Assembly: GCA_021161905.1 (NCBI GenBank)
Contig: JAGGZT010000001.1
Location: forward strand, 1-40,182
Origin: Acidobacteriota bacterium
Lineage (GTDB): Bacteria; Acidobacteriota; B3-B38; Guanabaribacteriales; JAGGZT01
Direction: 5' to 3'
Length of the DNA: 40,182 bases
Shown in pieces: positions 1,246 through 34,020 of the stretch. Within the stretch, counting starts at the first letter, position 1. Each line of letters opens with the position of its first letter. The notes beneath the pieces were generated by a model. It was not told where the DNA came from, made no database searches, and saw nothing but the letters and a program-made list of their open reading frames with translations. The position numbers and the translations under genes are program-made.

Positions 1246-2243
1246 TCCTAACTTCCCCTGCGCTTTTTTCCCCGCTCTTTTCATCGATGAGCGATAGTCT
1301 CAGAAGGTAAGAACCCGAGGGCGCGGTGAAGGATAGCTCGAAGTAGATGGATTCATCTCCTTTCTTCAGGAGCTCCTCCCTGGTGAAGAACAAGGACTTG
1401 CTCTCCTCCTTTTTCAAGAAGGGACCCTTTTGAGAAAAAAGGGCACAGCGAACCCGCAAAAGTAGATGAAGCCTTTCCCCCTCTTGATAGTAGGTAAGAG
1501 AGCGGTAGTTTACTTCAATTATTACTTTAACATCACCACTTTCACCGATTTTTACTCGATAGTGGAAAGGAAAGGGAAGTTGGGAGAAACTACCAGTAAT
1601 TTCTCTTTCTAAAAAGGGATAACTTAACCCATTAACTTTAATCTGTTTTTCCTTTAATTTGGTGATCATAGGGTGATACCACTTCGGGATAAGTTCTTCC
1701 CCCTTCCTTATGGTGTTGGCTGGACTTACCAACCCCGTCACCTCCGGAATGTTCCTCAATAGATAGTATCTCCCATTTCCTTTGATATCGGCGAAGATTA
1801 ACGGGTTATAGAAAGGAGGGGGAAGACTTTGATAGTACCAGAAGATAACCGGACGCTTTATACCAGCTATCGCTTCTCTCTTCTCTTCCTCCGGAGGACC
1901 AAAAAGGATGTATATCTGTCCCCGGGCGGTCTCCCAACCTTTGAGCCCTCGCTCAATAAAGTGAAGGTTGGCATATTCCACCCTCTCCTCAAATTCCTTC
2001 TTGAACTCATTCTCCGATGTCTCTGGGTTCGGATCACGACGCTTCCAGAATATCTCGATAAACTTGCGCCTTTCCGCATCCGTTTTCAGCTTCTCAAACA
2101 ACCTCTTCTCGGAGGAAAGAACGATCACCTCAACCGGTCCCTTTATCCAATTTCTTAAGGGCTCTTTCTCCTTTTGGAGGCAAAACCATTTTGGGGAGAG
2201 GAGAAGAAAAAAAAGAAATCAAGAAGAAAACCCCCCTCCTCAT
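1232..2243 (-). CDS. GWxTD domain protein, second of a tandem pair, with a one-base frame disruption after the start
   Basis: The main reading frame covers 1232 to about 2222 and includes the GWxTD core (GWETARGQIYILFGPP), with a beta-rich C-terminal part. Homology to the upstream paralog continues past the GTG at 2128 (NWIKGPVEV against DWINGPVRI). That frame has no usable start before its upstream TGA at about 2223. The natural ATG at 2243-2241 forms an ATGA overlap with the stop of the preceding gene, but it is in another frame. The two frames join in the T8 tract at 2214-2207: with seven Ts the product would begin MRRGVFFLISFFLLLSPKW, a good signal peptide. So this is one gene with a 1-base indel, a sequencing or assembly error, or slippage. 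GWxTD proteins are exported and of unknown function. The 3' end overlaps the convergent hydrolase by 14 bases. Confidence 0.75.
1893..2090. repeat. Near-identical 198-base block, copy 1 (GWxTD core)
   Basis: This block aligns without gaps to 2949-3146 (offset 1056) with only four differences, all synonymous. The encoded 66 residues (LKTDAERRKF through LFGPP) are identical. Sequence on both sides diverges sharply, which suggests recent gene conversion rather than whole-gene duplication. Confidence 0.9.
2207..2214 (-). other. T8 homopolymer where the two frames of the second GWxTD gene meet
   Basis: Read on the minus strand this is CTTTTTTTTC. Dropping one T puts the coupled ATG at 2243 in frame with the main GWxTD coding frame and creates a continuous signal peptide. 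Runs of eight are prone to indels during replication, transcriptional slippage and sequencing errors. Confidence 0.75.
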
Positions 2244-3301
2244 TGGTAGGCCTCCTCTTCAGGGGGGATATCTACGAACTGCTCCTTTACCCCTTTAGCA
2301 CCTGTCCGTTTATCTTCGAGTTTAGCTGTAAGATAGTATCCACCAGGAGGAAGATATATAGTTATTCGTTCCTCATACTTCGATTTGCTTCTTTGCACCA
2401 ATTCGTTCTTCATTAAAGAGAGCTCTACCTCTTTATCCTTTTTCTCTATCAATTTTCCTTTTTCTGTCCGTACCTCGAGCGTCAACTTCAATTTCGCCTT
2501 TAGCAGCCCCTTCTCCTGGTAATAAGTGAAATCGGTATAATTTATCCCTATTGTGACGAGGATCTCTTCTCCCCTTTTGTTTTTTCTCCCGGTTAGATGA
2601 TAGCTTAGATCAAAAGGTATAGCAGAAACGGAAATCCCTTCTCGCTTTCCGGTGAGTTCTGAGTAGTCAATATCGCGTCGCACGATCAACTTTTCCCGAA
2701 CATCTTCCATAGGTCTGAAGTATTCCACCGGGATTAGGTCTATCATAGACCGAGGGGTCTGACGGTAGAAGTAAAGATCGAAGATATCACGGGGAAAGGG
2801 GCGAAGTAGATAATACCTTCTGTTGTTGAAAATATCGGCGAAGACAAGCGCTTCGTCCCATCTTAAGTAAGAAGTTGGAGGATTATCGTAATACCAAAAG
2901 TAGGCAAGTCGAGGGACCCCAACAAGATTCTCTCGCCATTCACGAGAAGGAGGACCAAAAAGGATGTATATCTGTCCCCGGGCAGTCTCCCAACCTTTGA
3001 GCCCTCGCTCAATAAAGTGAAGATTGGCATACTCCACCCTCTCCTCAAATTCCTTCTTGAACTCATTCTCCGATGTCTCTGGGTTCGGATCACGACGCTT
3101 CCAGAATATCTCAATAAACTTGCGCCTTTCCGCATCCGTTTTCAGCCTTTTGAACAGTTTTTTCTCAGAGGAAAGGGCAATTATCCTTACCGGACCGTTG
3201 ATCCAATCCTTCAGGGATTCCCGTGCCTTCCCCGGAGGAAGCCATCCTCCATAAAGAAAGAGGAAACCGATGAGGAATAACCAATATTTCGTTGATTTCA
3301 T
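2240..3301 (-). CDS. GWxTD domain protein, first of a tandem pair
   Basis: This 353-residue protein has a Sec signal peptide (about residues 1-26, hydrophobic run YWLFLIGFLFLYGGWL). The conserved GWxTD region follows: FWKRRDPNPETSENEF at 67-82 and GWETARGQIYILFGPP at 103-118. The second half (about 120-353) is rich in beta strands and ends near PGGYYLTAKLEDKRTGAKG. The family is widespread in Acidobacteriota-type genomes and is probably periplasmic or outer-membrane associated; its biochemical role is not established. GAGGAG overlaps the stop of the preceding M14 gene (11-base gap), and the stop TGA overlaps the ATG of the second GWxTD gene, so translation of all three is probably coupled. 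Residues 53-118 are identical to the paralog. Confidence 0.85.
   Translation of the reverse strand: MKSTKYWLFLIGFLFLYGGWLPPGKARESLKDWINGPVRIIALSSEKKLFKRLKTDAERRKFIEIFWKRRDPNPETSENEFKKEFEERVEYANLHFIERGLKGWETARGQIYILFGPPSREWRENLVGVPRLAYFWYYDNPPTSYLRWDEALVFADIFNNRRYYLLRPFPRDIFDLYFYRQTPRSMIDLIPVEYFRPMEDVREKLIVRRDIDYSELTGKREGISVSAIPFDLSYHLTGRKNKRGEEILVTIGINYTDFTYYQEKGLLKAKLKLTLEVRTEKGKLIEKKDKEVELSLMKNELVQRSKSKYEERITIYLPPGGYYLTAKLEDKRTGAKGVKEQFVDIPPEEEAYQ
2949..3146. repeat. Near-identical 198-base block, copy 2 (GWxTD core)
   Basis: Partner of 1893-2090. The four differing positions are all silent at codon level, while the flanking parts of the two genes are clearly diverged. Confidence 0.9.
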
Positions 3302-3312
3302 TCATAAGCTCC

Positions 3313-5007
3313 TCAATTAAAGAGCCAACTCATATAAGGAATGACTTCCAGTTTAACCGGGTTCACCAACCGGTAAATAGGGAAGATGTCCCCTGCCTTT
3401 GGGACCAACCGATATTTGAAATAGCGGATGAGCCCATAGCTCGATGCTGGTTCGAGGAGTATAGGTACCAGGTTTCCTGCCAACTGGGAGGTATAAACGA
3501 CGAAGCTACCTTTCTTTACAACTATCTTGGAGCGTATTGGCTCTACTTCTATCTTCTTCGGAGGGTTGTAATCGAACCTCGCCGGGATTATCTCCTTCAC
3601 CCGGTAGTACTCAACCTCTATCTCCTTGTCCTCCATCACCTGATTTACCCTCACCCCCAAGCGAAGGAGTGTGGCTACGATGTCGCTTCTATCAGCAGGA
3701 ATTATATAGCCTAAAGGACGAACTACCGAGACTCGAGGGACAACCTTAGGTCTCCAGTTAGGCACCGTATAGGTTACTACCTTCATCTCTCCTCTCTTTA
3801 ACGGGATAATTTCATCCCGGGTTATTTTCTCCCCCTTCTTCTTATCGGTTTTCATAAACCCGAGAAGGCCCGGCTCTGGGGGTACCAACCGCTTCAATAC
3901 AAGTGGAGGAGCTTCCGGATCTGCTACATACTCCATCCTCAGATGGACGAGATCGCGAGGAGAAAATCTCTTTCCCTGCTCTATCAGCTTCCTCCGGCAG
4001 GAGGTGACCAATTTCTTTATCTCGGATTTATTTTCAGCTACGAACTTAAGAAGCGCCACCATCGCCTCGTATTGCCGCAAGGTCCTCTCCTTCAGGGTAG
4101 CCACCCTGTGGTCTGACGCCCCCTCAAGGATGAAGGAGAGGGTATTAAAGATGCCAAAGGAGTTTCTTCCATCGTTTATGTCGGTGGTGGAATAGCGAGT
4201 GATGATAACCGGTTTTTCTGGAGTCTTCATCAACCCGTAATTCGCACCAGAGGCAGCGTTTATTCCCAAGATCTGCCGTACAAGGTACTCATGGAAGGTG
4301 TATCCTTTCTTTTTGAGATATCCCTCTATATAGGGCAAAACCTTTCCTCGAGAGAAATCTTGCAACCTCTGATCTATATTGAGATTACTGACCACCCCTA
4401 CATTCTCCTGGTAATAACTTGGTCCCATCTCGTGAACATCGAGGGTTACCTCAGGAAGCCAGCGAATGAAGACCCGATGTGCTGCCTCCACTTCAGGGCT
4501 CTCAAGCTTTATGTGATCCCGATTCATATCGAGGTTCTGCTCGTTCCTTCGGGTATCATTCTCGTTTCCATAGGGGTTCATCTGGGGAATGATAAGGACA
4601 TTTACCTTGGAAAGGAGCGGTTTTAACTTGCCAAGGGTGAGCTCCCGAATGAGAAGAAGAGCTGCCTCCTTTCCCGATTGTTCGTTTCCATGCTGAGAAC
4701 AGATGTAGAGAATAGTCGGCTTCTCCCTGTCCACTTCATTAGGTGAAGCTATCCCTTTCTCCGTTATTATGGCGAGGTAGATATTTCTCTTCTCGTTGTA
4801 ATCGTTGGGATAATCGGTTTTAGCGATGGTCTTTACCACGAGATTAGGAGAAACGGAGGAAATGGTGCTCAAGAAACCGCTTATCTCAGGGTATTGAGTA
4901 TAGCGGGTGTAATCACATTTTTCTCCTGGGGTTTTAATATCTTGTGCAGAAAGAAGGACCGAGATGCTGATAAGCAACAAACCAATTAATAAGGCTTTCT
5001 TTTTCAT
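3313..5007 (-). CDS. Secreted M14-family zinc carboxypeptidase
   Basis: ATG at 5007 is chosen because it overlaps the previous stop (ATGA) and follows GGGGAGA; the product is 564 residues with signal peptide MKKKALLIGLLLISISVLLS. Zinc ligands are His106 and Glu109 (SQHGNEQ) and His192 (LDVHEMG). NLDMNRDH at 158-165 supplies the M14 substrate-binding segment, and Glu295 (SFILEGASDH) fits the general base. M14 enzymes remove C-terminal residues from peptides. The C-terminal 200 residues form a domain also seen in the second M14 protein of this window (27148-28830), ending in a YTSQLAGNLVPILLEP-type motif. It lies sixth in the eight-gene minus-strand unit, just before the GWxTD pair. Confidence 0.88.
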   Translation of the reverse strand: MKKKALLIGLLLISISVLLSAQDIKTPGEKCDYTRYTQYPEISGFLSTISSVSPNLVVKTIAKTDYPNDYNEKRNIYLAIITEKGIASPNEVDREKPTILYICSQHGNEQSGKEAALLLIRELTLGKLKPLLSKVNVLIIPQMNPYGNENDTRRNEQNLDMNRDHIKLESPEVEAAHRVFIRWLPEVTLDVHEMGPSYYQENVGVVSNLNIDQRLQDFSRGKVLPYIEGYLKKKGYTFHEYLVRQILGINAASGANYGLMKTPEKPVIITRYSTTDINDGRNSFGIFNTLSFILEGASDHRVATLKERTLRQYEAMVALLKFVAENKSEIKKLVTSCRRKLIEQGKRFSPRDLVHLRMEYVADPEAPPLVLKRLVPPEPGLLGFMKTDKKKGEKITRDEIIPLKRGEMKVVTYTVPNWRPKVVPRVSVVRPLGYIIPADRSDIVATLLRLGVRVNQVMEDKEIEVEYYRVKEIIPARFDYNPPKKIEVEPIRSKIVVKKGSFVVYTSQLAGNLVPILLEPASSYGLIRYFKYRLVPKAGDIFPIYRLVNPVKLEVIPYMSWLFN

Positions 5008-5258
5008 AGTTCTCCCCTTTCCCGTTCTAAATACCACTCCAAGGTAGCCTCGTCATAGATTAGGGTAAACTCCCTCCCCTCAGCGGAGACCCTGAAGATT
5101 CTCTTTGGGACCGCCCGAGGATGATGGGTTATCTCATATGCCCGAAAGATGATCATCTCTATCTCAAATCTGTGATTATTATAGAAGAATATTTGAGGGC
5201 GTTCCACCCCTTTTCCTCCGGAATAGGTGATTACCGTTATAGGCTCAAGTTCCCTCAT
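5004..5258 (-). CDS. Small 84-residue protein of unknown function
   Basis: This is a compact soluble protein without signal or membrane segment. It reads as a small beta-rich domain (RPQIFFYNNHRFEIEMIIF, then FRVSAEGREFTLIYDEATLEW). It weakly recalls DUF6504-type small proteins, but I cannot confirm that. The gene is real by context: it overlaps the DUF72 gene by 14 bases upstream, and its stop overlaps the M14 start in ATGA. There is no strong ribosome site of its own (only GAGAT), so translation probably depends on the DUF72 gene. Confidence 0.7.
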   Translation of the reverse strand: MRELEPITVITYSGGKGVERPQIFFYNNHRFEIEMIIFRAYEITHHPRAVPKRIFRVSAEGREFTLIYDEATLEWYLERERGEL

Positions 5259-5964
5259 CGACTATCTCCATAAACCGGATGGCGTCCTCGGCCATATTGG
5301 TGTTATTGAAGAGAACAAGAGTTTCCTTATACTGGCTCGAAATATCCAGAAGCTGAGAGAGTTCCTCGTCGGAATAACGATAACGGTATCCTCCTCTTCC
5401 ATGGAGTCGGAAGTAGGCAATCTCTTGATCTTTGGGGAGAGAGGTAAACGGATCGGTAGCGTGAATGATCCCAAGCTCTCTACAAATTTTGGTTATCTCG
5501 GGAAGCTCCCATTTCCCTCGAGGCTCCCAGGCGATTAGATAATTTCTTTTCCCTATTTTCTTGAAGAATTGAAAAAGGTTCTCCTTATTCTCCTCGGAAG
5601 GGGTAAAGCTTGCCGGCGTCTGGAAGAGTACCAACCTTGCCTCAACTGCTTTGGCGATGGCATCGGTCTCCTCAAATGCCCGGAATAGTTCGGGGGTGTT
5701 CTTGAAGAAGCCGTAAGCCCCCCTCTTATCTGGAGGAATTGGCTTTCTAAGCCGACGGTAGGTAGGGGAACTGGGAAGGTGGGTGATCAGTTGCGATGCC
5801 TTGAGGGTGAAGACGAATGAGGCTGGTGCTTCCTTTCGCCATCTGAGCGCCGTCTCCAAACGAGGAAGCTGATAGAAGGTACTCTGAAGCTCGACGAGGG
5901 AAAATCTCTTGAAGTATTCCTCTTTCCTCATAGGGAAGCCGCAGCAACCGACGATGATGCTCAT
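5245..5964 (-). CDS. DUF72 (YecE-like) TIM-barrel protein
   Basis: The product is 239 residues from the ATG at 5964, chosen because it forms an ATGA overlap with the archaemetzincin stop. The start IIVGCCGF matches the DUF72 opening IxxGTSGW-like strand. Other family hallmarks are VELQSTFYQLP near residue 25, a TLKASQLITH segment, LVLFQTPASF, and the C-terminal AYFRLHGRGG ... YRYSDEEL followed by LVLFNNTNMAEDA. DUF72 proteins are predicted TIM barrels with no settled reaction. No export signal is seen. Its place inside an operon of exported peptidases and radical SAM enzymes is the main clue to function. Confidence 0.87.
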   Translation of the reverse strand: MSIIVGCCGFPMRKEEYFKRFSLVELQSTFYQLPRLETALRWRKEAPASFVFTLKASQLITHLPSSPTYRRLRKPIPPDKRGAYGFFKNTPELFRAFEETDAIAKAVEARLVLFQTPASFTPSEENKENLFQFFKKIGKRNYLIAWEPRGKWELPEITKICRELGIIHATDPFTSLPKDQEIAYFRLHGRGGYRYRYSDEELSQLLDISSQYKETLVLFNNTNMAEDAIRFMEIVDEGT

Positions 5965-6578
5965 CGTTCTTTCTCCCTTTCTATAGCCTCTTCCAATAAT
6001 CGGCGACACCGGGGGCAAAAATGGGCACTTTTTCTATCAGTATCGGCAAGGCTGTTTGAAAAATGCATTACGCAGTTAGGATCAGAACAATGGGGAAGGC
6101 CATAGGTGTGACCCAATTCATGGACCGCCTCCTTTAAAGCGCGCAGGAAGAATAGTTCAGGATCAGGAGGTAAGTGATAGAACTCCTGCCTCAGCCTGAC
6201 AAGGGAGATCACTGCTACCTTCGCCTCCGGATCCGCTTCACCAAAAATGAAATTCAATCCCGGAACCCAAAGGTCGTGATTCACTATCCCAAGCACCCGA
6301 GAGGCATCCTTGGGAAATTTTCTCTTAAGCAATGAGAGGATGGCGGGAGAGTAATATTGTCTTCGAGTAGGTACATATGCGCCGGAAGGAAGGCCAATGA
6401 CGGAACCGATAACAAAGGGTTGGTGAAACTCCTCTTCAAGATTAAGACGCAACTCCCGAACCAACTCCGGATCTACCCCATCACCGATGGGTATAAGATA
6501 GACTTTCTTTCCATCCGGATTTCGCCCCGGAAGTATCATATTGAACAACAAGAGAATAACAGATATGAACTTTAGCAT
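5961..6578 (-). CDS. amzA: Archaemetzincin-family zinc metallopeptidase with an N-terminal signal-like segment
   Basis: The signature is complete in this 205-residue protein: HELGHTYGLPHC has zinc ligands His153, His157 and His163 with base Glu154, and Cys164, Cys169, Met171, Cys188 and Cys191 follow as in archaemetzincins (second structural zinc). The domain begins at about residue 25 (KKVYLIPIGDG), where family members usually start. Ahead of it is MLKFISVILLLFNMILPG, which looks like a Sec signal and is unusual for this family. The start is supported by TGAGG seven bases upstream, overlapping the end of the previous gene (4-base gap). The aminopeptidase-like activity reported for relatives is weak and the natural substrate unclear. 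Confidence 0.9.
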   Translation of the reverse strand: MLKFISVILLLFNMILPGRNPDGKKVYLIPIGDGVDPELVRELRLNLEEEFHQPFVIGSVIGLPSGAYVPTRRQYYSPAILSLLKRKFPKDASRVLGIVNHDLWVPGLNFIFGEADPEAKVAVISLVRLRQEFYHLPPDPELFFLRALKEAVHELGHTYGLPHCSDPNCVMHFSNSLADTDRKSAHFCPRCRRLLEEAIEREKER

Positions 6579-6582
6579 CTCC

Positions 6583-7707
6583 TTACCTCAAAAGATGAAT
6601 ATTTCCTATATGAACCCGCTTAAGACCGGATGAGCAAGCAGCTTCATAACAGAGATAAGCCTCCCTTCGCGATGTAGTAGGGAGATCGTTCATCAGAAAC
6701 TGAGGGTAAAAAGCGAGGAGCGAATAAGGTATATCTGGGTCGATATCCGCTATAAAACGAGCAATCGCCCCTACCTCATCCGGAGTTATATATCCAGGGA
6801 TGAGGAGAGTGCTTGCTACAAGGAGCGGAGGTTTCCTTCTCTTCTCGGCAATCTTAGCAAGGAGGAGGAAGTTTTCCAAGGTTCTTTTATTCGACGCTCC
6901 AGTTAACGTCCGATGGAGCCTATCATCCAAAGCTTTTAGATCAAATTTAACGCAACCACCGGAGATAAGGGCTATTTCTCCTATCTCTTGGGCGAACCTC
7001 TTAGCCATACTACTGTTTGTCTCCCAACAAATGCGAAGGATCCTTCCCTTCGTCCGCGAAAGGGCAATCCTTGCCGCTTTTATGGAATGGGTTATCTGCG
7101 GGGTGGGATCCCCACCGAAATAGCAGACACAAGCGGTCTTATCGTCGACGAGATCGGCAAGTTCAGTGGCGCTTAAGGCCCTACCCCCCTTTCCTGCTTT
7201 AAAATGCCAATTCTGACAAAAGAGGCAATCAAAAGAACAGGCGAGATAAAAGACAGCCAAATTGAAAAAACCATACTCCGCACCGTCAGCATAAGAATAG
7301 TCGGATTCATTGTATCCCGAACCAGCGGGGCAAACAAAGGAGGCGACACAATTGGTAGGTAAAGGATCATAATAGTAGTCGAGCATCCCCATATCTTCAC
7401 TGCCAGTAACGGGAACAATCCGCCCAGAAGCGTTTTCCCGCACTCCACAATATCCCCTTTTCCCCTCAGCTATTGAACAATCGTTCACACATATGCCACA
7501 TTTAACCCCTTCTTTCGTCCTCGGAGGAGATGAGGGAAGGGAAAAGGGCTCCCGAGCCTTCTGATGAACCCCGTCAATATGGTAACGGAACCGGTCGTAA
7601 TCCTCTTTGATGCAGGAAACACACAAAGAAAGGACCCTTGATACTCCTTCAACCTTTCCGCAACCGATACACTTGGTTGTGTCACTTTCAGGATTTGAAG
7701 GGACCAT
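6583..7707 (-). CDS. PflA/AmrS-like radical SAM protein with an extra N-terminal cysteine cluster
   Basis: This 374-residue protein carries the radical SAM cluster Cys157-x3-Cys161-x2-Cys164 (ACSFDCLFCQNW). Ahead of it are two further Cys sets: a zinc-ribbon-like CIGC...CVSC (13, 16, 29, 32), and Cys70, 73, 77 and 87 with GKRGYCGVREN, a motif shared with the AmrS protein upstream. It resembles pyruvate formate-lyase activating enzymes, but no glycyl-radical protein is encoded nearby. ATG at 7707 follows GGGGGAG and lies inside the 3' end of the AmrS gene (20-base overlap). The archaemetzincin gene follows after 4 bases. Substrate unknown. Confidence 0.85.
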   Translation of the reverse strand: MVPSNPESDTTKCIGCGKVEGVSRVLSLCVSCIKEDYDRFRYHIDGVHQKAREPFSLPSSPPRTKEGVKCGICVNDCSIAEGKRGYCGVRENASGRIVPVTGSEDMGMLDYYYDPLPTNCVASFVCPAGSGYNESDYSYADGAEYGFFNLAVFYLACSFDCLFCQNWHFKAGKGGRALSATELADLVDDKTACVCYFGGDPTPQITHSIKAARIALSRTKGRILRICWETNSSMAKRFAQEIGEIALISGGCVKFDLKALDDRLHRTLTGASNKRTLENFLLLAKIAEKRRKPPLLVASTLLIPGYITPDEVGAIARFIADIDPDIPYSLLAFYPQFLMNDLPTTSRREAYLCYEAACSSGLKRVHIGNIHLLR

Positions 7708-8731
7708 TTACTCCCCCGATAATCGGTATCGGGGCTCCGCAAACGGCACACTTCCCCTCTGAAATGGAATGGGAAATCAGCCTATGTCCCCGCCTGGTTA
7801 TCACCTGGGAGCCGCATTTAGGACAATAGGTGTTTTCCAAAGGGTGATTAGGCACATTGCCGATATAGATATAGGAAAGCCCCACCTTCTTCCCAATGTT
7901 ATGGAACCGCTCGAGGGTAGAAACAGGGGTTTCCGGGAGGTGCTCGAGTTTGTAGTGAGGAATGAAACGGGTAATATGCCATGGGGTGTCTTTACCTAAA
8001 CTCTTTACGATCCACTCGGCAATGCCCTCTGCCTCCCTATCGTTATCGTTTAAGGTGGGGATTACATTGGTTACCACCTCGATATGCATCCCCCATTTCT
8101 TTTTTGCCCTGATTACCGTGCGCAACACAGGAAAGAAATTGGGTACATTGGCGATCTTCTGATAGAATTCGTTGGAGAAGCCTTTTATATCCACCCTGAA
8201 GGCGTCAATATAAGGACCGATCAAATCAAGCGCCTCAACGGTTAGGTAACCATTGGTCACTATGCTGGTATGGAGCCCCCTCTCTTTGGCTAACTTTGCA
8301 GTATCGAGAATGTATTCAAGCCAAATGGCCGGTTCATTATAGGTCCAACAGATGCCTTCACAGCCAGAGGATATCGCAAGCTCCACTGCCTTTTCCGGGG
8401 TGATATACTCCGTCTCCCGCGAGGACCTTCCGGGGGCGGTGTGGGCTATTTCCCAATTCTGGCAGTGAATACACCGAAAATTGCACCCTAAGGAACCGAA
8501 AGAAAGCGCTCGACTTCCAGGGTAGAAGTGATAAAGAGGTTTTATCTCCATAGGGGCAGGGAAGAAGGTAGAAACCTCTCCATAGATAAGGGAGTAAAGC
8601 TTTCCTCCTCTATTCTCCCTGGTAAGACAATATCCCCTTTCTCCCTCGGGGATGACGCACTGCCGTTCACAAACGAGACAGCGTACCCTCCCCTCCATCA
8701 GTTTTTGATAAAGAGTGGCTTCTTTGATCAC
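7688..8731 (-). CDS. amrS: AmmeMemoRadiSam-system radical SAM enzyme
   Basis: This 347-residue protein has radical SAM cysteines 83, 87 and 90 (GSLGCNFRCIHCQNWE). An N-terminal Cys set (18, 21, 25, 35; RGYCLTREN) and the segment ICWTYNEPAIWLEY are typical of AmrS. The C-terminus carries a zinc-ribbon-like pair, YCPKCG ... KCAVCG. In many genomes AmrS is found with AMMECR1 and Memo proteins; neither is in this window. The start is GTG at 8731, chosen by family length; its ribosome site is weak, and the frame stays open upstream to a CTG near 8779 behind GAGGAAGG, so the true start may be earlier. It is the first gene of the eight-gene unit, transcribed from the extended -10 at 8820-8812. Confidence 0.9.
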   Translation of the reverse strand: MIKEATLYQKLMEGRVRCLVCERQCVIPEGERGYCLTRENRGGKLYSLIYGEVSTFFPAPMEIKPLYHFYPGSRALSFGSLGCNFRCIHCQNWEIAHTAPGRSSRETEYITPEKAVELAISSGCEGICWTYNEPAIWLEYILDTAKLAKERGLHTSIVTNGYLTVEALDLIGPYIDAFRVDIKGFSNEFYQKIANVPNFFPVLRTVIRAKKKWGMHIEVVTNVIPTLNDNDREAEGIAEWIVKSLGKDTPWHITRFIPHYKLEHLPETPVSTLERFHNIGKKVGLSYIYIGNVPNHPLENTYCPKCGSQVITRRGHRLISHSISEGKCAVCGAPIPIIGGVNGPFKS

Positions 8732-12622: not shown

Positions 12623-12655
12623 AAAGACCGTTTTTAACTCTTGGTCTTTTATAAT
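12623..12655 (+). promoter_or_regulatory. Small hairpin abutting a TATAAT box before the M1 gene
   Basis: AAAGACC at 12623-12629 pairs with GGTCTTT at 12643-12649, and a perfect TATAAT follows at 12650-12655. This may be a weak terminator after GH99 or a promoter for the M1 gene; the expected -35 position is poor. Transcription from it would start about 36 bases before the ATG at 12698. Confidence 0.35.
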
Positions 12656-12697
12656 TTAGGCAAGGGAAATGGCTTGATAGCTCAGGGAGGAAAGGAT

Positions 12698-14722
12698 ATG
12701 AGAAGAAGATGGATAGGAGGATGGATCTTTCTTCTCCTTCTCGTTTTTTCCGCAAGTTCTTTTGCCTCGTCCCTTCAGCGTCCTTTTGCCAAGAGGATCG
12801 CCAATTACCAAATGAATGTTCGTCTCGATGTAGAGAAGAAGATAGTCTCCGGAACCGAGGTTCTTACTTGGCTCAACACCTCTAAGCAAAACATAGGGGA
12901 ACTTCGTTTCCACCTCTATATGAACGCCTTTAAAAACACCGAGTCGACCTTTATTCGGGAAGGATTGCGGGATGTAAGGCGGGGAAGAGCGTGGAGACGG
13001 GCTCTCGGGAAAAAGGAGTATTGGGGTTATATTGATGTAAAAAAGATCGCGCTCGTAGATGAAACGGGAAAGGAAATTGCTGACCTCACCAAAACGATGG
13101 CCTACATTCAACCTGATGATGGAAACCCCTACGATCAAACGGTAATGAAGGTCATCCTACCCAAACCAATAGCTCCGGGGAAGAAGGTAAAACTTAAAAT
13201 AGACTTTGTCACTAAGCTTCCGCGTTGTTTTTCAAGAACAGGGTGGGTCCGCGATTTCTTCTATGTCGCCCAGTGGTTCCCCAAAATAGGGGTTTTTTAT
13301 GAGGGGAAGTGGAACTGCCATCAATTCCACGCAAACTCGGAGTTCTTCGCCGATTTCGGTATCTATGATGTGAGATTGACCGTACCTAAAGGGTACATTG
13401 TGGGGGCAGGAGGTAGGCTTATAGACAAAAAGGAAAACCCCGACGGAACGATAACCTACCATTTCTATGAAGAGGACATCCACGATTTCGCTTGGACTGC
13501 AGGGAAGCATTACCTCGTTTATCACGATCAGTTTGTCTACCCTTCAGGACATAAGGTAAATCTCACCCTCCTCATCCAGAAGGAACACAAATCTCAAAAA
13601 GATCGTTATCTTAAGGCATTCAAAGCAGCGCTCAAATGCTATGGTACCTGGTTTGGGGAATACCCCTACGATCACTTTACCTTGGTCGACCCCGCTTATG
13701 GTAGTGGTGCTGGCGGGATGGAGTATCCTACCATCTTTACTGGGGGAACGAGTCTCTTTCCCGCCAAGGGTTCTCTTTCTCCCGAAGGGGTGACGATCCA
13801 CGAGGCGGGACACAACTGGTGGTATGGGATGGTGGCGAACAATGAGTTTGAGGATGCCTGGCTCGATGAGGGGTTCAATTCCTATTCCGACGAACGGACC
13901 GCTGACGCCGCCTATCCTCCTGGTAAACTCTATCGAAGGTATTTTGGGTTTCCTTATGTATTTAATGAAGTCGAGATAAAGCGGATCGATCGCCAACTTG
14001 CCCGCTATCGCACAGGGGCTAAATACGACATCCTCTCGCGCTTCGCTTGGGAATATATGAACGGCTCAAGCTACGGTATAAACGCCTATTCGAAAGCGGC
14101 ATTGATGCTCTGGACCCTGAGGGGGCTCCTTGGTCCTGAGCTTGAAGGGAAGGTTATGAAGACCTACTTCGAGCGCGCACGATTCACCCATCCAAGGCCC
14201 AAGGATTACTTCAAGGTGGTGAACGATGTTACTGGTGAGGACTGGAGTTGGTTCTTTAATCAGTTGGTCTATGGTTCTGAGATAGTAGATTACTCAGTGG
14301 CAAGCATCTCCTCCTATCCTACTGGGAGAAAGGTGGGTTGGTTCGACGAACAGGGGAAAAGGGTTTTCTACGCCGGGCAGAAAAAGCAAAAGGGGAAAAG
14401 GATATACCGCTCCACGGTCCTTGTTCGAAGGATAGGTGAAGTGAGGTTACCGGTAGAAATACTGATCGTGTTCGAGAATGGAGAGAAGGTTAAAAAAGTT
14501 TGGGATTGGAAGAATCAATACCGCTGGGTGAAGTTTACCTTTGATAAACCGGTAAGGGTGAAGTATGCGGTGGTTGATCCTGAGGGGAAATTAGCCCTTG
14601 ATATCGATTACATCAACAACTCCCTAACCAGAGAGGAAAAGAAACTTCCCGCTTTCAAATGGGCTTACCGCTGGATGATATGGTTCTCTCACTTTCTGGA
14701 AACGATAAGCTTCTTTAGCTGA
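12698..14722 (+). CDS. Secreted M1-family aminopeptidase
   Basis: The start is ATG at 12698 behind GGGAGGAAAGG, giving 674 residues with signal peptide MRRRWIGGWIFLLLLVFSASSFA. The exopeptidase segment appears as GAGGMEYPT at 337-345. The zinc site is HEAGHNWWYG (His368, Glu369, His372) with Glu391 18 residues on, in WLDEGFNSY. M1 enzymes remove N-terminal amino acids from peptides, here likely in the periplasm or outside. The N-terminal domain (about 30-230) is the usual beta saddle. Next comes a membrane protein gene after 14 bases, then a strong terminator, so the two genes form an operon. Confidence 0.9.
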   Translation: MRRRWIGGWIFLLLLVFSASSFASSLQRPFAKRIANYQMNVRLDVEKKIVSGTEVLTWLNTSKQNIGELRFHLYMNAFKNTESTFIREGLRDVRRGRAWRRALGKKEYWGYIDVKKIALVDETGKEIADLTKTMAYIQPDDGNPYDQTVMKVILPKPIAPGKKVKLKIDFVTKLPRCFSRTGWVRDFFYVAQWFPKIGVFYEGKWNCHQFHANSEFFADFGIYDVRLTVPKGYIVGAGGRLIDKKENPDGTITYHFYEEDIHDFAWTAGKHYLVYHDQFVYPSGHKVNLTLLIQKEHKSQKDRYLKAFKAALKCYGTWFGEYPYDHFTLVDPAYGSGAGGMEYPTIFTGGTSLFPAKGSLSPEGVTIHEAGHNWWYGMVANNEFEDAWLDEGFNSYSDERTADAAYPPGKLYRRYFGFPYVFNEVEIKRIDRQLARYRTGAKYDILSRFAWEYMNGSSYGINAYSKAALMLWTLRGLLGPELEGKVMKTYFERARFTHPRPKDYFKVVNDVTGEDWSWFFNQLVYGSEIVDYSVASISSYPTGRKVGWFDEQGKRVFYAGQKKQKGKRIYRSTVLVRRIGEVRLPVEILIVFENGEKVKKVWDWKNQYRWVKFTFDKPVRVKYAVVDPEGKLALDIDYINNSLTREEKKLPAFKWAYRWMIWFSHFLETISFFS

Positions 14723-15836: not shown

Positions 15837-17876
15837 TTATTCTTTCTCTTTTTTCTCCTTTTTTTCTTTTTTCTTCTCCCGTGGTGGAGCGGTCCACTTT
15901 ATCCCCCGGATGTACTTCTGCATCCAGGCAATCTCTTCAACCATAAGAATGCGCCGGTGATGTGGTTCCCTTATCCCATGGGGCTCCCGCGGGAAGCGGA
16001 TGAAGCGGACAGGAACGCCGAGCTCCCGTAGAGCATTATGGTAGTTCATCGACTGCTGAATGGTATCGGTGATATCACGCTCTCCGTGAAAGATGATAGA
16101 GGGGGTCTTTACATTTTTGATATAGGTGTAGGAGGAGTGTTTCAGATAGCCATCGGGGTTATCCCAAGGGGTGCCGCCTATATACCACAGTTTCACATCG
16201 TAGTTGAAGCCCTGTCCATACTCCGAGCGCCAATCGCAGACCATCGCCCCGAGGGAGGCTGCTTTGAACCTATTGGTCTTCGTTATCGTCCACCCAGAGA
16301 GGATACCGCCATAGCTCCAGCCTCGGATACCGAGTTTGTCCGGGTTAGCAATCCCTTTCTTGATCACATAATCCACCCCGGTCATCAGATCCCAATAATC
16401 GCCGCCACCGATATCGTGCATATTCCCCCGGAGGAACTTATCGGTATAGCCACTGCTCCCTCTCACATTGGGACAGAGCATTGCGTACCCTAAACCGGTA
16501 TAAACCTGGTATTCTCCGTTAAACCTATTAGTGAATACCCCTGCAGGACCACCGTGAACATTGAGGATAAGAGGAAGCTTTCCCTTCTTGCCAGCTGGGA
16601 GATAGAGCAAACCCTCGATCTTAAGCCCGTCCTTACTCTTCCAGTGAATGATCTTCATATCAGCTAAAGCGATCTCCTTCCTTATCCAAGGATTGGCATC
16701 GGTGATCCTAATCGGCTTAGCACTGGGGAGATCTGCAATCCATATGTCAGGCGGGGTCTTGTAATCAGAATAGGTATAAGCGAACCTCTTTCCGTCAGGC
16801 GTCATCGAGGCGATACGAGCAACGCCGGTGAAATTAGTGAGCTTCCTTATCCTCCCCGAAGCAACATCAAGCTCATAGAGATTGCTCGCAGTGCGCTGAA
16901 GTCCATTGAAGAAGACTTTGGAGCCATCAGGACTAAACCGATACCAAGAAATATTTCCCTCAAATCTTCCAGAGAGCATACGGTATTTTCCGGTATTGAT
17001 GTTGAAGAGCCAGATCTTATCGTTGGCAAGTTTCCAGGTCTTGTCGTCAGGCGCGAGATAGGCGATGTGCTCTCCGTCCGGCGAGAAAGAAACACCCATC
17101 TCCGGGGCTTGGTTATGGGTGAGCTGGGTTATCTTGCCTCCTTTTATATCTACTATACATATCTCCGCTCGGTACATCTCGTTTCGATGGTTCTCGAGCC
17201 GTCTTACGAAGACTATCTTGTCGCCCTTAGGAGAAACATCAAACCCCTGAACCCGCATTTTCTCCTTGGTAATCGGTTTTATCTCTTTGGTCTTGACATC
17301 CACTACCCACAGGTTGGACCAACTGCCTCGATACTGTCCATTGGGTCCTTCGTCGACATAGATGACATCATCTCCCTGCTTCATCTTCTTCTCCACCTCG
17401 GGGTCGACCGGATCAGGAGAGAGGAACACTATCTTCTTGCCATCCTTGGTCCATTTGAAGGAGATAATACTTGCTTTATGCTTGGTCAGCTGGAACGCCT
17501 CACCACCGGTTGTCCTAATGAGCCATATCTGGCTATATTTCTTCTTGTCCTTGCCTCGGCGGAGGAAAGCGATATACTTCCCATCCGGTGACCATTGGGG
17601 TGATCTATCCCCTTCTTCTGCAGTGTACTGGAACGCCTCACCACCAGTTGCCGGGATCATAAAGAGTTTTGAGACCCACTTATTCTTTTCCCAGTTAAGG
17701 GTGGTTTTAGTGAAAAGGATCCATTTCCCATCAGGAGAGAGCTGAGGGTTTCCTACCCGAACCATATTGAGAACATCGTCCACCGTCATTGCCCTCTTCT
17801 TCCCCTCTTGGGCAAAAAGAAGGGAGGAAAGGGCTAAGAAGAAAAGTATAAGGAGAACACCCTTTCTCCTTCGCAT
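15837..17876 (-). CDS. Secreted S9-family (prolyl oligopeptidase-type) peptidase with lysine-rich tail
   Basis: This 679-residue protein has signal peptide MRRRKGVLLILFFLALSSLLFA and an N-terminal beta-propeller with repeated SPDGK blades (from about residue 47 to 390). The C-terminal alpha/beta-hydrolase domain carries the oxyanion segment HGGPAG (441), nucleophile Ser521 in GWSYGG, Asp601 in GERD and His633 in EPHG. S9 enzymes of this shape cut short peptides, often as acylaminoacyl or dipeptidyl peptidases; which applies is unclear. The last 15 residues are almost only Lys and Glu (KKKEKKEKKEKE), an odd low-complexity tail. AAGGAGGTGTG is a strong ribosome site. Its own promoter and terminator make it a single-gene unit. 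Confidence 0.9.
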   Translation of the reverse strand: MRRRKGVLLILFFLALSSLLFAQEGKKRAMTVDDVLNMVRVGNPQLSPDGKWILFTKTTLNWEKNKWVSKLFMIPATGGEAFQYTAEEGDRSPQWSPDGKYIAFLRRGKDKKKYSQIWLIRTTGGEAFQLTKHKASIISFKWTKDGKKIVFLSPDPVDPEVEKKMKQGDDVIYVDEGPNGQYRGSWSNLWVVDVKTKEIKPITKEKMRVQGFDVSPKGDKIVFVRRLENHRNEMYRAEICIVDIKGGKITQLTHNQAPEMGVSFSPDGEHIAYLAPDDKTWKLANDKIWLFNINTGKYRMLSGRFEGNISWYRFSPDGSKVFFNGLQRTASNLYELDVASGRIRKLTNFTGVARIASMTPDGKRFAYTYSDYKTPPDIWIADLPSAKPIRITDANPWIRKEIALADMKIIHWKSKDGLKIEGLLYLPAGKKGKLPLILNVHGGPAGVFTNRFNGEYQVYTGLGYAMLCPNVRGSSGYTDKFLRGNMHDIGGGDYWDLMTGVDYVIKKGIANPDKLGIRGWSYGGILSGWTITKTNRFKAASLGAMVCDWRSEYGQGFNYDVKLWYIGGTPWDNPDGYLKHSSYTYIKNVKTPSIIFHGERDITDTIQQSMNYHNALRELGVPVRFIRFPREPHGIREPHHRRILMVEEIAWMQKYIRGIKWTAPPREKKKEKKEKKEKE

Positions 17877-21612: not shown

Positions 21613-23640
21613 TTACTTGAGATAGGTAGCCAACCACTCGTAGATCGTTTTCCACCAAAGCTCAGCGTTAAGTGGTTTCAACACCCAGTGTCCTTCATCG
21701 GGGAAATAAAGTAGCTTAGAGGGTATCCCCTTCCGCTGAAGGGCAGTAAACACCTGGAGCCCCTGATCCACCGTCACTCGGAAGTCCTGTTCCCCGTGGA
21801 TGATGAGCATTGGAGTCTTGAAATTGGCGACATAATTGTGGGGAGACCATTTCTCATAGAGCTCCTTGTTCGTCCAGGGGGTTCCTCTAAACTCCCATTC
21901 GGGGAACCAGAGCTCCTCAGTGGAGAAATACATACTGACCGTATTGAATACCCCATCGTGATTTACCAGACAGCGGAACCTATCAGTATGCCCTTCTAAC
22001 CAATTTATCATATAGCCACCGTAGGAGGCGCCAGCAGCTGCGATCCTATTCTTATCGATGAACGGATAGTGGGAAAGGACATAATCCACACCATTCATCA
22101 GGTCAATGAATACCTTGCCCCCCCAATCGCCTGATATCTCATCGGTGAACTTCTGCCCATAACCTGTGCTTCCCCTCGGATTGACCATCACCACTACATA
22201 GCCCGGAGCGGCAAACATCTGGGCATTCCAACGATAATGGAAGAAATCGCTCCAAGCGCCTTGCGGTCCTCCGTGGATAAGATAGACCATCGGGTATTTC
22301 CGCTTCGGATCGAAACCTGGAGGCTTCAGGAGGAATCCGTGAACCTTTGTCCCTCCAGCCCCCTTGAACCAGAACTCCTCAGCCGGGTTCATCTCAAGTT
22401 GGGAAAGGAGAGCGTCATTAATATGGGTTAGTTGTCTTACCCCGGTCCCATTGGCTCGAGCGACATAGAGGTCCACTGGATGATTCATACTCTGGCGACA
22501 AAAAAGGAGAGACTTGCCATCAGGACTTACCCTAAGACTGGTATTATAGCTTTTGCCGATAAGTTTAACCACCTTTCGGGAGGAAATGGAAACCATATAG
22601 ATCGAGGAATACCCTTCATCCTGAGCTGTGAAATAAAGCTTCTTTGAATCCGGTGACCAAACAACACCTCCCACCGAACGATCGAGATCTTTTGTAAGAC
22701 TGCTAATAGTACCCTTCTCCCGATCGTAAAGCATTAGCTGATAGCGGTCGGATTCAAATCCAGGTCTCATCTGAGCTCTGAAGGCGATATAACGCCCGTC
22801 CGGGGAGTAGATCGGTTGATTGTCGTTTGCCTTGTTGGTAGTAATCCTCTTCGGTCTCCCGCCGGTTACCGGAACTACGAAGAGATCGTTATTGGTGCTT
22901 ATCGCCACCATAGGATCGGTATTCATCTCGAAGCAGATCTCCTTCCCATCCGGAGAGAAGCTGAAAGCAGGAGAACCTCCAAGGGATATGGGAGGAACAT
23001 CGTGATAGCCTGGGGTGAGATCGCGCGGCTTGCCACCCTCTGCTGGTATTACAAAAAGATGGCTCCATTTTCCATTACGCCAGCTCGCCCAATGCCGATA
23101 GAGAAGGTGATCGATTATCCTCGCCTTCACCTTGCTCTTCGCTTTCTCCAAGTCTCGCTTTTTGTTCTCCTCGTCACTCTTAGCATCAGGATATACCCGG
23201 GAGACGAAAGCAAGGTACTTTCCATCAGGGGACCACTCTACCAAGTTAGCACCGGTCCAAAGATGGGTGATTTGTCTTGCCTCTCCTCTCTCCAAGGGAA
23301 GGACCCACACTTGGGGCTTACCGCTTCTGGTTGAGATGAAAGCAAGCCTCTTCCCATCCGGCGAAAAACGAGGATGGAAATCGGCTCCCTTACTGTTTGT
23401 CAACTTCCTCGGTTCACCACCAGAAAAGGGAACAACCCAGATATCACTGTCACCACGATTCGTCTCCGTGCTGTAATAAGTGATCACAAAAGCCACCAGC
23501 TTTCCGTCTGGAGAGATCTGTGGATCGGATACCCTACCGATGCTGATCAAATCGTTAAAGGTGATAGGGTGCTTTGCCTGGGCGGCGAAAAGGGAAACGC
23601 CTGCCAGTAAAATCAAAATAAAGGTAGCTAATCTCTTCAT
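21613..23640 (-). CDS. Secreted S9-family peptidase (acylaminoacyl/dipeptidyl-peptidase type)
   Basis: This 675-residue protein has signal peptide MKRLATFILILLAGVSLFA. A beta-propeller of SPDGK repeats spans about 40-400. The catalytic domain has HGGPQG (456), Ser539 in GASYGG, Asp619 in GEQDFR and His651 in DEGHW. GASYGGYM with a WSPHNY segment after it resembles the DPP V / acylaminoacyl-peptidase branch rather than the GWSYGG branch seen in the other two S9 genes here. It would release dipeptides or blocked residues from oligopeptides outside the inner membrane. A strong GAGGGAGGAAGAGGG ribosome region precedes the ATG. It is flanked by terminators on both sides. Confidence 0.9.
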   Translation of the reverse strand: MKRLATFILILLAGVSLFAAQAKHPITFNDLISIGRVSDPQISPDGKLVAFVITYYSTETNRGDSDIWVVPFSGGEPRKLTNSKGADFHPRFSPDGKRLAFISTRSGKPQVWVLPLERGEARQITHLWTGANLVEWSPDGKYLAFVSRVYPDAKSDEENKKRDLEKAKSKVKARIIDHLLYRHWASWRNGKWSHLFVIPAEGGKPRDLTPGYHDVPPISLGGSPAFSFSPDGKEICFEMNTDPMVAISTNNDLFVVPVTGGRPKRITTNKANDNQPIYSPDGRYIAFRAQMRPGFESDRYQLMLYDREKGTISSLTKDLDRSVGGVVWSPDSKKLYFTAQDEGYSSIYMVSISSRKVVKLIGKSYNTSLRVSPDGKSLLFCRQSMNHPVDLYVARANGTGVRQLTHINDALLSQLEMNPAEEFWFKGAGGTKVHGFLLKPPGFDPKRKYPMVYLIHGGPQGAWSDFFHYRWNAQMFAAPGYVVVMVNPRGSTGYGQKFTDEISGDWGGKVFIDLMNGVDYVLSHYPFIDKNRIAAAGASYGGYMINWLEGHTDRFRCLVNHDGVFNTVSMYFSTEELWFPEWEFRGTPWTNKELYEKWSPHNYVANFKTPMLIIHGEQDFRVTVDQGLQVFTALQRKGIPSKLLYFPDEGHWVLKPLNAELWWKTIYEWLATYLK

Positions 23641-23779: not shown

Positions 23780-25462
23780 TTATTGCTCGGTAACAAACTC
23801 CTTTATGAAATATTCCGGATTTAGACTCTCTCCGGTTGCTTTCTTCAAAAGCTCATCCCAGCGGAGACTCGCTCCAGGTCTAAAGATCTTGCTCACCAGA
23901 TATCTACCGGCATCCCGCTGATCATAGAAATAAACATCCCAAGTAGAGGGAACCTTCAAGACATTGTCCTTGATATAGCTGACGAGGTGAGAAGCCATTA
24001 AATCGCCAAGCATATAATTGTGGTAGTAAACGGGCGCAGTGGTAAAGTGGATCTTTGCTGCCCAATCAGGGGCATCTCGCCCCTCAGGTCTATGAACGAA
24101 CTGGTATCTCTCCACCATATCCCACCAGAGTTTGTTCAAGTCCTGATCCGGATTCTTATAAAGCTCTCGTTCAAAATTAACCATCACCTGACACCAACGA
24201 GCAAAAACAAGCGCTTTCAACCGAAGGGAGCTCTTTACCGGCTCCTCAAGCTTGGCATACTCCTCGTCAGGAAGGGAAAGGGCTACCTTCAACCAGTTGG
24301 GGTTTCTGGTGAGCCGTTCGAACATCATCGCTATCGCTTCGGTGGTAAAGGCATGCGATGGCTCTCGGAGAAGATAAGGGAGATCTCCATTGATGTACTT
24401 GTCGTAGACCGCATGGCCAAGCTCGTGGAGCATAGTTGCTGTCCATCGCTCGTTGGTCCTTATATTGGCGAGGATGCGGATGTCCTGCTTTCTATCTATG
24501 TTAATGGTAAAAGCATGCTGTTCCTTACCCGGCTTCTCGAAAAGGTCGCTCCGCTTTATGATGTCATTAACAACGAGACCCATACTCTTATAAGTGTTGG
24601 CAGCGAGCATCGCTGGATTCTTGCCCTTAAAGTAAGCATCGAGGTTCACATCGTAGATCCGTGGCGGTTCCTGGAAGAACGGGTCTTCGTAATCCCAAGG
24701 TCTAAGTTCGTCCACCGAAACCATCAACTTGGCGGCGATCTTCTTATCGATCTCTCCCTTCAGCTTCTTGAATGGTTCATCTGAGAGCTCCTTCAGTTTC
24801 GCCATAATGGAAGTAAGCTCTTCCGGCTTTATCTCGGAGAGGGTCAGCTCCATCTCGTAATAATTGTTATAGCCGAGAGCCTTAGCTGCCTTATTTCTCA
24901 ACTTCACCAGCTCAATAAGCTTCGGTGCTACTGCCGCTCCTACCTGCTTGCTCGCCTCCCATGCCTTTTTGCGGAGTTCTCTATTGGTCTCAGTCGCCAG
25001 AATTTCGTAGATCCGATTATCTGTTACCTCTTTCCCATCGATCTTGGCTCTGAAGGTATCGAAGATGTGACGGATCTCCGCTGACTTTGTGATTATCTCC
25101 TTCTGTAACTCTGGGTCGACCTGGTGCTCCGCATAGGCGTTGTAGAGGATGGTCAACTGACGGGCAAGAAGCGGGTCCTTTATCTCCCCCTTCTCCTTTA
25201 GCCTTTTTAAGAACTCGAAATCCCCCTTATCGCTGTAGATATCCGCGATCTCCTGCTCTAACCTGCTTACCTGATCATATGCCTCTTTTTTCCCAGTGGT
25301 AGTCGCCTCCCATTCCGCTAAACTGGCTTGGGTCATAAGCGGCTCTACTTTGGCTACATGCTTTTCGATAAAAGCCTGCAATTTCCCCTCCGGCGTTTTG
25401 GGACCACAAGCAACGAGAAAGGAAAGGACGAGAAAAGAAAATAGGATGAGCCTTAGCTTCAT
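23780..25462 (-). CDS. M2-family (angiotensin-converting-enzyme-like) dipeptidase, lipoprotein
   Basis: This 560-residue protein has a lipoprotein signal (SFLVAC with Cys19 as the lipid site). The zinc site is HELGH (His346, Glu347, His350) with Glu375 in AFTTEAIAM. The stretch NGDLPYLLREPSHAFTTEAI parallels the ACE segment around its third ligand, which favours family M2 over M3. ACE-type enzymes release C-terminal dipeptides. The length fits a single-domain bacterial M2 enzyme. It is probably anchored to the periplasmic side of a membrane and feeds dipeptides to uptake systems. It is divergent from an APC permease gene and has its own terminator. Confidence 0.87.
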   Translation of the reverse strand: MKLRLILFSFLVLSFLVACGPKTPEGKLQAFIEKHVAKVEPLMTQASLAEWEATTTGKKEAYDQVSRLEQEIADIYSDKGDFEFLKRLKEKGEIKDPLLARQLTILYNAYAEHQVDPELQKEIITKSAEIRHIFDTFRAKIDGKEVTDNRIYEILATETNRELRKKAWEASKQVGAAVAPKLIELVKLRNKAAKALGYNNYYEMELTLSEIKPEELTSIMAKLKELSDEPFKKLKGEIDKKIAAKLMVSVDELRPWDYEDPFFQEPPRIYDVNLDAYFKGKNPAMLAANTYKSMGLVVNDIIKRSDLFEKPGKEQHAFTINIDRKQDIRILANIRTNERWTATMLHELGHAVYDKYINGDLPYLLREPSHAFTTEAIAMMFERLTRNPNWLKVALSLPDEEYAKLEEPVKSSLRLKALVFARWCQVMVNFERELYKNPDQDLNKLWWDMVERYQFVHRPEGRDAPDWAAKIHFTTAPVYYHNYMLGDLMASHLVSYIKDNVLKVPSTWDVYFYDQRDAGRYLVSKIFRPGASLRWDELLKKATGESLNPEYFIKEFVTEQ

Positions 25463-29860: not shown

Positions 29861-29887
29861 GCCTCAACCTAACTGAAAAATGTGAAG

Positions 29888-33203: not shown

Positions 33204-33219
33204 CCACAACCTCCCATTA

Positions 33220-34020
33220 TCATTGATTTTTATTAAAATAAACCAAAATTTTATCTCCTCGGCGAACAGAGAGGAGCTCATCTGCTCTCCCCTGATAGAC
33301 GCTCAGTTCCAGGTAATCACTGCTCCCGAAGATAGCGAAGGGTCCTCCTTCCTTCCCTTCCTCGTAGCTCTTTTTGATTTCGGTAATTTTCCTTTTATTA
33401 ACTTCAATTGCGATAAATTTCTTTACATATCGCTTGAAGAAGGAAAGGTCGATATTGGTAACAACATTGCCGAAGCGATCTATGTGGATCACCTCCCCGA
33501 TCAAAACATCACCCATTACTTCAACTTTGGGCAGGGAAAACTCGACAAAATCAGAGATTTTTGGACCGAAAAGACGAGGGGAAACACCCGAAGCAAGATG
33601 AGCTGCTGCCGGGGCAAAGACATCCCTTCCCTGAAAAGTCGTCCCCCGCGGAGTAATAAGATATTTCTCCTTTCTTATCTCAAAGGCTCGAACCTTCTCT
33701 CTCGCCGAGATGAAGGATAAAAGTCCATTGTCCGGAAGTACGAAATAATAGCTCCCGGTTACCGCAATGATGGGCTTTCGCTTCCCCCCTACCCCCGGAT
33801 CAACCACCACCAAATGAACCGTGCCCGGTGGAAAATACCGATAATAACAGGAGAGAAGGTAGGAAGCCTGATATATATCATGTGGGGGTATGTTATGGGT
33901 GATATCCACCAATCTGAGCGAGGGGTTGATCCCGAGGATTACCCCTTTCATCGTACCTACATAATGATCCTCCTCACCAAAATCAGTAAGAAGGGAGATG
34001 ATACCGGAAACTTTATTCAC
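33220..34020 (-). CDS. S-adenosylmethionine hydrolase (SAM hydroxide adenosyltransferase, DUF62)
   Basis: The start is the GTG at 34020 behind GGAGGAG; an in-frame GTG further up at 34068 lies before the promoter's -10. The product is 266 residues. Family motifs are LLTDFGEEDHYVGTMKGV at the N-terminus, VDITHNIPP, VHLVVVDPGVG, and FVLPDNGLLS. C-terminal signs include FGNVVTNID and GSSDYLELS. Enzymes of this family split SAM with water into adenosine and methionine, and are relatives of the fluorinase and chlorinase; no halogenase-specific context is present. Its pairing with a secreted DPP4-like peptidase is unexplained. Confidence 0.9.
   Translation of the reverse strand: MNKVSGIISLLTDFGEEDHYVGTMKGVILGINPSLRLVDITHNIPPHDIYQASYLLSCYYRYFPPGTVHLVVVDPGVGGKRKPIIAVTGSYYFVLPDNGLLSFISAREKVRAFEIRKEKYLITPRGTTFQGRDVFAPAAAHLASGVSPRLFGPKISDFVEFSLPKVEVMGDVLIGEVIHIDRFGNVVTNIDLSFFKRYVKKFIAIEVNKRKITEIKKSYEEGKEGGPFAIFGSSDYLELSVYQGRADELLSVRRGDKILVYFNKNQ

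Follow-up and report, generated by a model that had tools for sequence, protein, structure and literature searches.

The window analysed here (the whole stretch of DNA, 40,182 nucleotides long) encodes two overlapping radical SAM proteins, A and B, which are likely to be functionally linked. We propose, at a rough probability of 40%, that the clade of A (A') and B are two enzymes with the fold of the pyruvate formate-lyase (PFL) activase that do not serve a glycyl-radical enzyme (GRE), and that they work in one pathway with a protein substrate, possibly in the control of protein damage. A is a member of TIGR04337 (the AmmeMemoRadiSam radical SAM family) that lies outside any complete AmmeMemoRadiSam locus, and B, also a radical SAM protein, does not fall within TIGR04337 in the limits set by NCBI.

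Two overlapping radical SAM genes with a PFL-activase-type fold

Both genes lie on the minus strand. Gene A (7688..8731) starts with GTG and encodes 347 amino acids, gene B (6583..7707) starts with ATG and encodes 374, and the sequence confirms the overlap of 20 bases (7688..7707) reported in a first-pass annotation of this DNA. The heptamer GGGGGAG stands 3 bases before the ATG of gene B, within the 3' end of gene A, and the two genes may be translationally coupled at this overlap.

The product of gene A scores 305.9 bits against TIGR04337, over the curated cut-off of 220, and has the N-terminal four cysteines, the triad and the C-terminal CxxC...CxxC that are features of this family; its clade A' within TIGR04337 has a support of 100/98. 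The three-part AmmeMemoRadiSam system does not surround it, as neither Memo nor AMMECR1 lies alongside and their nearest copies are on other contigs. No NCBIfam profile reaches its cut-off on B, a separate cysteine-rich family by profile scores, conservation and predicted structure; the best is TIGR04337 itself (69.6 bits versus the cut-off of 220), which at E 1e-5 matches 60/60 of the aligned B relatives. Both proteins carry CX3CX2C and exceed the gathering score of PF04055 (Radical_SAM, 29.5), A with 79.4 and B with 52.5 bits, and on both all NCBIfam activase models remain far under cut-off. The window encodes a further radical SAM protein, carrying Radical_SAM_C, at 38707-39786 (minus).

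When solved structures were searched by sequence, two PFL-activase entries were the best matches of B. An AlphaFold2 model of B (60-row alignment; pLDDT 92.6, pTM 0.92) agrees with this: among the Foldseek matches listed the best is PFL-activase (Z 22), covering residues 104-367 and leaving residues 1-103 outside, and the next is NifB (Z 17). The model of A, built from 8 rows (pLDDT 82.7) and less sure than that of B, also has PFL-activase as its best match. Of the solved folds, that of the E. coli pyruvate formate-lyase activating enzyme (PDB 3c8f, 8fo0) comes nearest to both models, but A and B differ from this enzyme in lacking a spare glycyl-radical partner and in having additional cysteine sites, and residues 1-103 of B have no counterpart in the match. 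The shared PFL-activase-type barrel and the shared N-terminal cysteine motif support the view, held already in the first-pass annotation, that A and B are paralogues.

Conserved cysteine sites in A and B

In both proteins a Cx2Cx3Cx9C motif ends in RGYC-xx-REN ahead of the CX3CX2C triad, an arrangement that had been noticed before and that is conserved in relatives. In A (all sites on the minus strand) the N-terminal motif consists of C18, C21, C25 and C35 (8627..8680) and is shared with other A rows; in the A' alignment the first three are present in 30/31 rows and C35 in 31/31. The radical SAM triad C83, C87 and C90 (8462..8485) occurs in 31/31 A' rows, and the C-terminal zinc-ribbon-like site, also found in other A rows, comprises C303 and C306 (31/31) and C328 and C331 (30/31; 7739..7825 for the whole site). 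Each of the eleven motif cysteines of A is present in 30 or 31 of the 31 A' rows, and the additional cysteines of A are ordinary TIGR04337 family features.

Among the 81 full-length rows of the B alignment, 17 cysteines are kept in at least 77 rows and C353 in 71. In B, likewise on the minus strand, these include an N-terminal zinc-ribbon-like site (C13, C16, C29 and C32; 7612..7671; 80/81 rows), the Cx2Cx3Cx9C site (C70, C73, C77 and C87; 7447..7500; 81/81), an insert DPLPTNC-VA-x-(W/F)-V-C with C120 and C126 (7330..7350; 81/81) that is a gap in all A groups, and the triad C157, C161 and C164 (7216..7239; 81/81). Further into the barrel, according to the model, C193 and C195 (7123..7131; 81/81) lie on strand 191-199, which runs into the GGDP motif, C227 (7027..7029; 81/81) lies on the next strand (225-230), and C252 (6952..6954; 77/81) stands directly before the DLK-bearing strand 253-256. 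The zinc-ribbon-like four-cysteine sites that the first-pass annotation had placed at the end of A and the start of B are both real and not chance, and its auxiliary cysteines are conserved in the A' as well as the B alignment; in B it had missed C120, C126, C193, C195, C227, C252 and C353.

A cross-family alignment of 10 A' rows, 14 Memo/AMMECR1-neighboured A rows, 40 other A rows and 25 B rows separates what is common from what is particular to B. The N-terminal Cx2Cx3Cx9C motif is common to every A and B group and the C-terminal ribbon to all A groups, while the N-terminal ribbon, the C120/C126 insert, C193, C195, C227 and C252 occur in B only. B terminates at a GN motif, after which the C-terminal ribbon starts in A. 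TIGR04337 thus resembles A in its N-terminal four cysteines, triad and C-terminal ribbon, and B in its N-terminal motif and the barrel as far as the final GN, but B differs in having no C-terminal ribbon and in its N-terminal ribbon, NC...C insert and barrel cysteines, and A' in forming a separate clade that Memo and AMMECR1 do not adjoin.

From these motifs, the CX3CX2C triad of each protein would hold the SAM-cleaving [4Fe-4S] cluster and the Cx2Cx3Cx9C of each would form one further metal site, in addition to the zinc-ribbon-like site at one end of each protein. The side chains of C193, C195, C227 and C252 in B are predicted to point toward the barrel interior, judging from how they alternate with the presumed SAM-contacting residues, and these invariant or nearly invariant cysteines, on or directly before three successive strands, may bind a second cluster. 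In biotin synthase (BioB) a second cluster lies deep in the barrel, held by strand cysteines, and the cluster proposed for B would be similar, a likeness that is a lead only. BioB was not among the top 1000 Foldseek matches of the B model, a listing that excludes nothing.

Memo, AMMECR1 and the glycyl-radical enzyme of the genome

The genome, of which the window is one contig (C1), comprises 72 contigs and 2.09 Mb. It has three Memo matches (C16, C34 and C42), two AMMECR1 matches (C18, and C34, where AMMECR1 is fused to Memo) and TIGR04337 is represented three times, on C4, on C34 and in the window; the copy on C34 lies about two genes from the Memo-AMMECR1 fusion. The earlier statement that the window encodes neither a PFL-like protein nor Memo or AMMECR1 was correct, the matches of the genome being on other contigs. 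A single protein of this genome matches the glycyl-radical domain, a trans-4-hydroxy-L-proline dehydratase (1315 bits versus a cut-off of 1100), and its gene is overlapped by its own GRE-activase-family gene (TIGR02494, 371 bits, cut-off 174); we therefore rejected this enzyme as the substrate of A or B. Since Memo, AMMECR1 and the GRE each have their own A copy or activase nearby, the pair is not orphaned by their absence from the window but is a separate branch.

A' and B are associated without forming a fixed operon

A scan of species genomes yielded 125 B relatives. The 80 loci that were retained come from many bacterial phyla, and archaea such as Methanothrix and Sifarchaeum are also represented. 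No relative of B was confirmed on viral contigs and none was found on plasmids searched at E 1e-20, and a viral or plasmid home for B was rejected accordingly. The B alignment behind the model contained the window and 59 of the 80 loci (L100 was left out for a stop in range, L118 as adjacent, and the rest for redundancy).

The first-pass annotation had proposed a conserved gene pair as a test, and here the genes proved to be apart in most relatives: only 7/80 have A at 3 kb or less from B (L040, L041, L044, L048, L051, L056 and L067), with more than 3 kb available upstream of B in 61 of the 75 loci in which its gene was picked again, and we rejected a fixed A-B operon on this count. Where A is nearby, it is always upstream of B on the same strand, from overlapping to about 1.5 kb away. 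Linkage of A' and B within about 3 kb was also seen in G376, G494 and the window.

A tree was made of 64 A rows together with 5 B rows. Its clade A' (support 100/98) unites the A of the window with seven further rows linked to B, two of which share a taxonomic order, and with two rows that are unlinked but whose genomes carry B. The Memo/AMMECR1-neighboured A rows all fall in another clade (14/14; support 93/90), apart from A', and the stretches fetched around the 10 A' rows contain neither Memo nor AMMECR1. Beside A in L121, L122, L124 and L133 there are AMMECR1-containing ORFs of about 465 amino acids, in genomes without a Memo (PF01875) match.

Genome tests on B covered 50 of the 80 loci and used an A' profile of 8 rows that are all B-linked, a composition that favours recovery of linked copies. 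This profile scored at least 504 bits in 12 of the 50 genomes and at most 416 in the rest, so that 38/50 B genomes show no A'; seven of the 12 had supplied rows to the profile. In the organism's own phylum (297 genomes) A' occurs in 5 genomes, all 5 with B, and B in 11/297, with G119, where A' and B are on different contigs, as the only case independent of the A' profile. A TIGR04337 match of some strength is present in 11/11 B genomes of this phylum, and matches over the cut-off in 177/297 of its genomes overall. The deltaproteobacterial phylum of G315 (395 genomes) offers a larger sample, with A' (at least 470 bits) in 20 genomes and B in 86: B is present in 12/20 A' genomes versus 74/375 others (p = 1.6e-4, uncorrected for kinship), and if A' matches down to 419 bits are admitted, in 13/25 versus 73/370 (p = 5.7e-4, likewise uncorrected). 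Eight of the 20 A' genomes in this sample have no B at E 1e-60. On a FastTree tree of B (71 rows) the 9 linked rows require 7 state changes. The association of A' and B is moderately supported by these data. The earlier suggestion that the two probably act in one pathway is upheld in part, by the enrichment of A' in B genomes and by its adjoining B in scattered lineages of several phyla, but the two do not form a conserved pair.

An archaemetzincin gene recurs beside either enzyme

Directly downstream of B, on the same strand, lies a gene for an archaemetzincin, an M54 zinc protease (5961..6578, minus; NF033823, 179.8 bits, cut-off 145; Peptidase_M54). Its product resembles known members of M54 in carrying HEXXH-xx-G-xx-HC-x4-C-x-M and a later CxxC, the motif given for archaemetzincin in PMC3427221. 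None of the papers searched joins archaemetzincin with radical SAM enzymes. The next gene encodes a DUF72 protein (5245..6018, minus; PF01904, 5.3e-35; start codon uncertain).

The alignments of neighbours comprise 52/65 A' neighbours, without those of the window, of L040 and of L041 and without one of L234, and 113/184 B neighbours, from which chiefly short ORFs, next-but-one genes and ones counted before had been removed; neighbour counts omit the B of 5/80 loci and the A' of L236 and L251. In five lineages an archaemetzincin gene is found 1-3 genes away from A' or B in the same orientation, namely in the taxonomic order of the window (window, L040 and L041), G402, G622, G715 and one planctomycete. 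In G402 and G622 the gene adjoins A' with B elsewhere in the genome, and in G715 and the planctomycete it adjoins B, with A' not found in the genome. The proteins of the window, G622 and G715 are over the NF033823 cut-off, while two matches (loci L075 and L239) are under it, with 104 bits in G402 and 101 bits in the planctomycete. Compared with other A copies, archaemetzincin is found at 5/30 A' loci versus 0/54 (p = 0.005, for stretches that differ in length), and with the taxonomic order of the window counted once the p-value is 0.037.

Other neighbours are sparser. DUF72 adjoins A' or B in the taxonomic order of the window, G376, G315 and G100 and also occurs at 4/54 other-A loci; PCMT adjoins A' in L238, L243 and L249 and lies two genes from B in L265, with 2/54 among other-A loci. 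Neither is significant against the other A copies (p = 0.27 and 0.34, respectively), and both were rejected as A'-specific partners. MsrAB sits between A' and B in L056, Hsp33 as well as PCMT adjoins A' in L243, where Thg1 is also near A', and GidB and CLP1_P are each found in one A' neighbour. A formamidopyrimidine-DNA glycosylase is encoded near A' in L229 and L231, which are close relatives by their B genes. DUF763 is found near B in two related genomes (L229, 8647-9732, between A' and B; L254, 4554-5654), and in one deltaproteobacterial genome the gene immediately after B encodes a weak Memo-like protein (L061, 9243-10484).

The commonest neighbour of B is a THEP1-like NTPase (NTPase_1, PF03266; 10/113), mostly in deltaproteobacteria and itself a possible partner of B. 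It is the next gene after B on the same strand in L064, L077, L081, L084, L085, L088, L093, L095 and L098, and the second gene after B in L058. An S4 pseudouridine synthase accounts for 6/113 B neighbours, in Aminicenantes only. Neither of these is a repair gene, and both speak against a role in protein repair.

Around the pair the window is unusually rich in peptidase genes (M14, M1, S9, M2/M3, M48 and Lon-like; 3313-5037, 12641-14722, 15837-17876, 21613-23640, 23780-25462, 27148-28830, 29882-30916, 30972-33281 and 36257-38710), with an amino acid permease among them (25632-27029), which suggests a protein-fermenting host. Two tandem GWxTD-domain proteins are encoded at 1232-2128 and 2240-3301 (both minus).

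Discussion

Archaemetzincin flanks A' where B is elsewhere in the genome and flanks B where A' is not found, and for this reason we infer that the substrate of the pathway would be a protein or peptide. A' and B would act on a target other than a GRE, the pathway may handle modified or damaged protein in anaerobes, and archaemetzincin would possibly act before or after A' and B. A shared protein substrate is favoured because archaemetzincin flanks either enzyme alone and MsrAB, Hsp33 and PCMT are recurrent neighbours. The repair theme was noticed post hoc rather than predicted, and some of its elements did not stand up in the comparison with other A copies; for this reason we give the proposal somewhat less than even odds. 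A bolder form of this proposal, which we regard as distinctly doubtful, is that B represents a new radical SAM family whose members hold as many as three metal sites in addition to the SAM cluster, with one site (C193/C195, C227 and C252) buried inside the barrel as a source of sulfur or electrons, and that B would form with A' and archaemetzincin an undescribed protein-repair or protein-sulfur-insertion pathway of strict anaerobes.

The main rival reading is a nucleotide or RNA substrate: B, and A' as well, would alter a base or nucleotide, with the N-terminal zinc ribbon of B binding RNA. The THEP1-like NTPase and the pseudouridine synthase next to B, Thg1, GidB and CLP1_P near A', and the RNA-modifying RlmN and TYW1 among the fold matches of B would all suit it, and in 2019 Burroughs and colleagues reportedly tied Memo to the modification of nucleotide bases. 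We nevertheless consider this unlikely, as the restriction of the NTPase mostly to deltaproteobacteria and of the synthase to Aminicenantes may reflect local synteny, and archaemetzincin, MsrAB, Hsp33 and PCMT do not fit. It is also rather improbable that the two enzymes are separate and adjoin each other here by coincidence or as a mere regulatory convenience; the low rate of linkage, the 38/50 B genomes without A' and the 8/20 A' genomes without B would be expected on such a reading, but the enrichment in the deltaproteobacterial sample, the scatter of linkage over the B tree and the presence of archaemetzincin beside either enzyme speak against it.

That A' and B belong to the AmmeMemoRadiSam system, serving Memo or AMMECR1 from a distance, would agree with the TIGR04337 score of A, with the occurrence of TIGR04337 over its cut-off in 47 and of Memo in 40 of the 50 B genomes, with the Memo-like gene directly after B in L061 and with the three Memo and two AMMECR1 genes of the organism itself. 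In this genome, however, another copy of A stands two genes away from the Memo-AMMECR1 fusion, and A' stands outside the Memo/AMMECR1 clade, with Memo or AMMECR1 in 0/10 of the fetched A' stretches, which makes such a role very doubtful. Activation of a GRE, the task of the enzyme whose solved fold is nearest to both proteins, is highly improbable, as the only glycyl-radical enzyme matched has an activase of its own and both A and B fall far under every activase cut-off.

Literature searches on AmmeMemoRadiSam, and on radical SAM enzymes with AMMECR1 and Memo, turned up no function, and searches by COG number (COG2108; COG1180/COG2078/COG1355) found nothing useful. Parts of the AmmeMemoRadiSam system have human homologues, Memo and AMMECR1, and to our knowledge its chemistry is not settled. 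The A' branch, which comes without Memo and AMMECR1, beside the cysteine-rich B and often near a protease, offers a smaller and testable setting, and B itself is a protein that passes no NCBIfam cut-off and is widespread over many anaerobic phyla.
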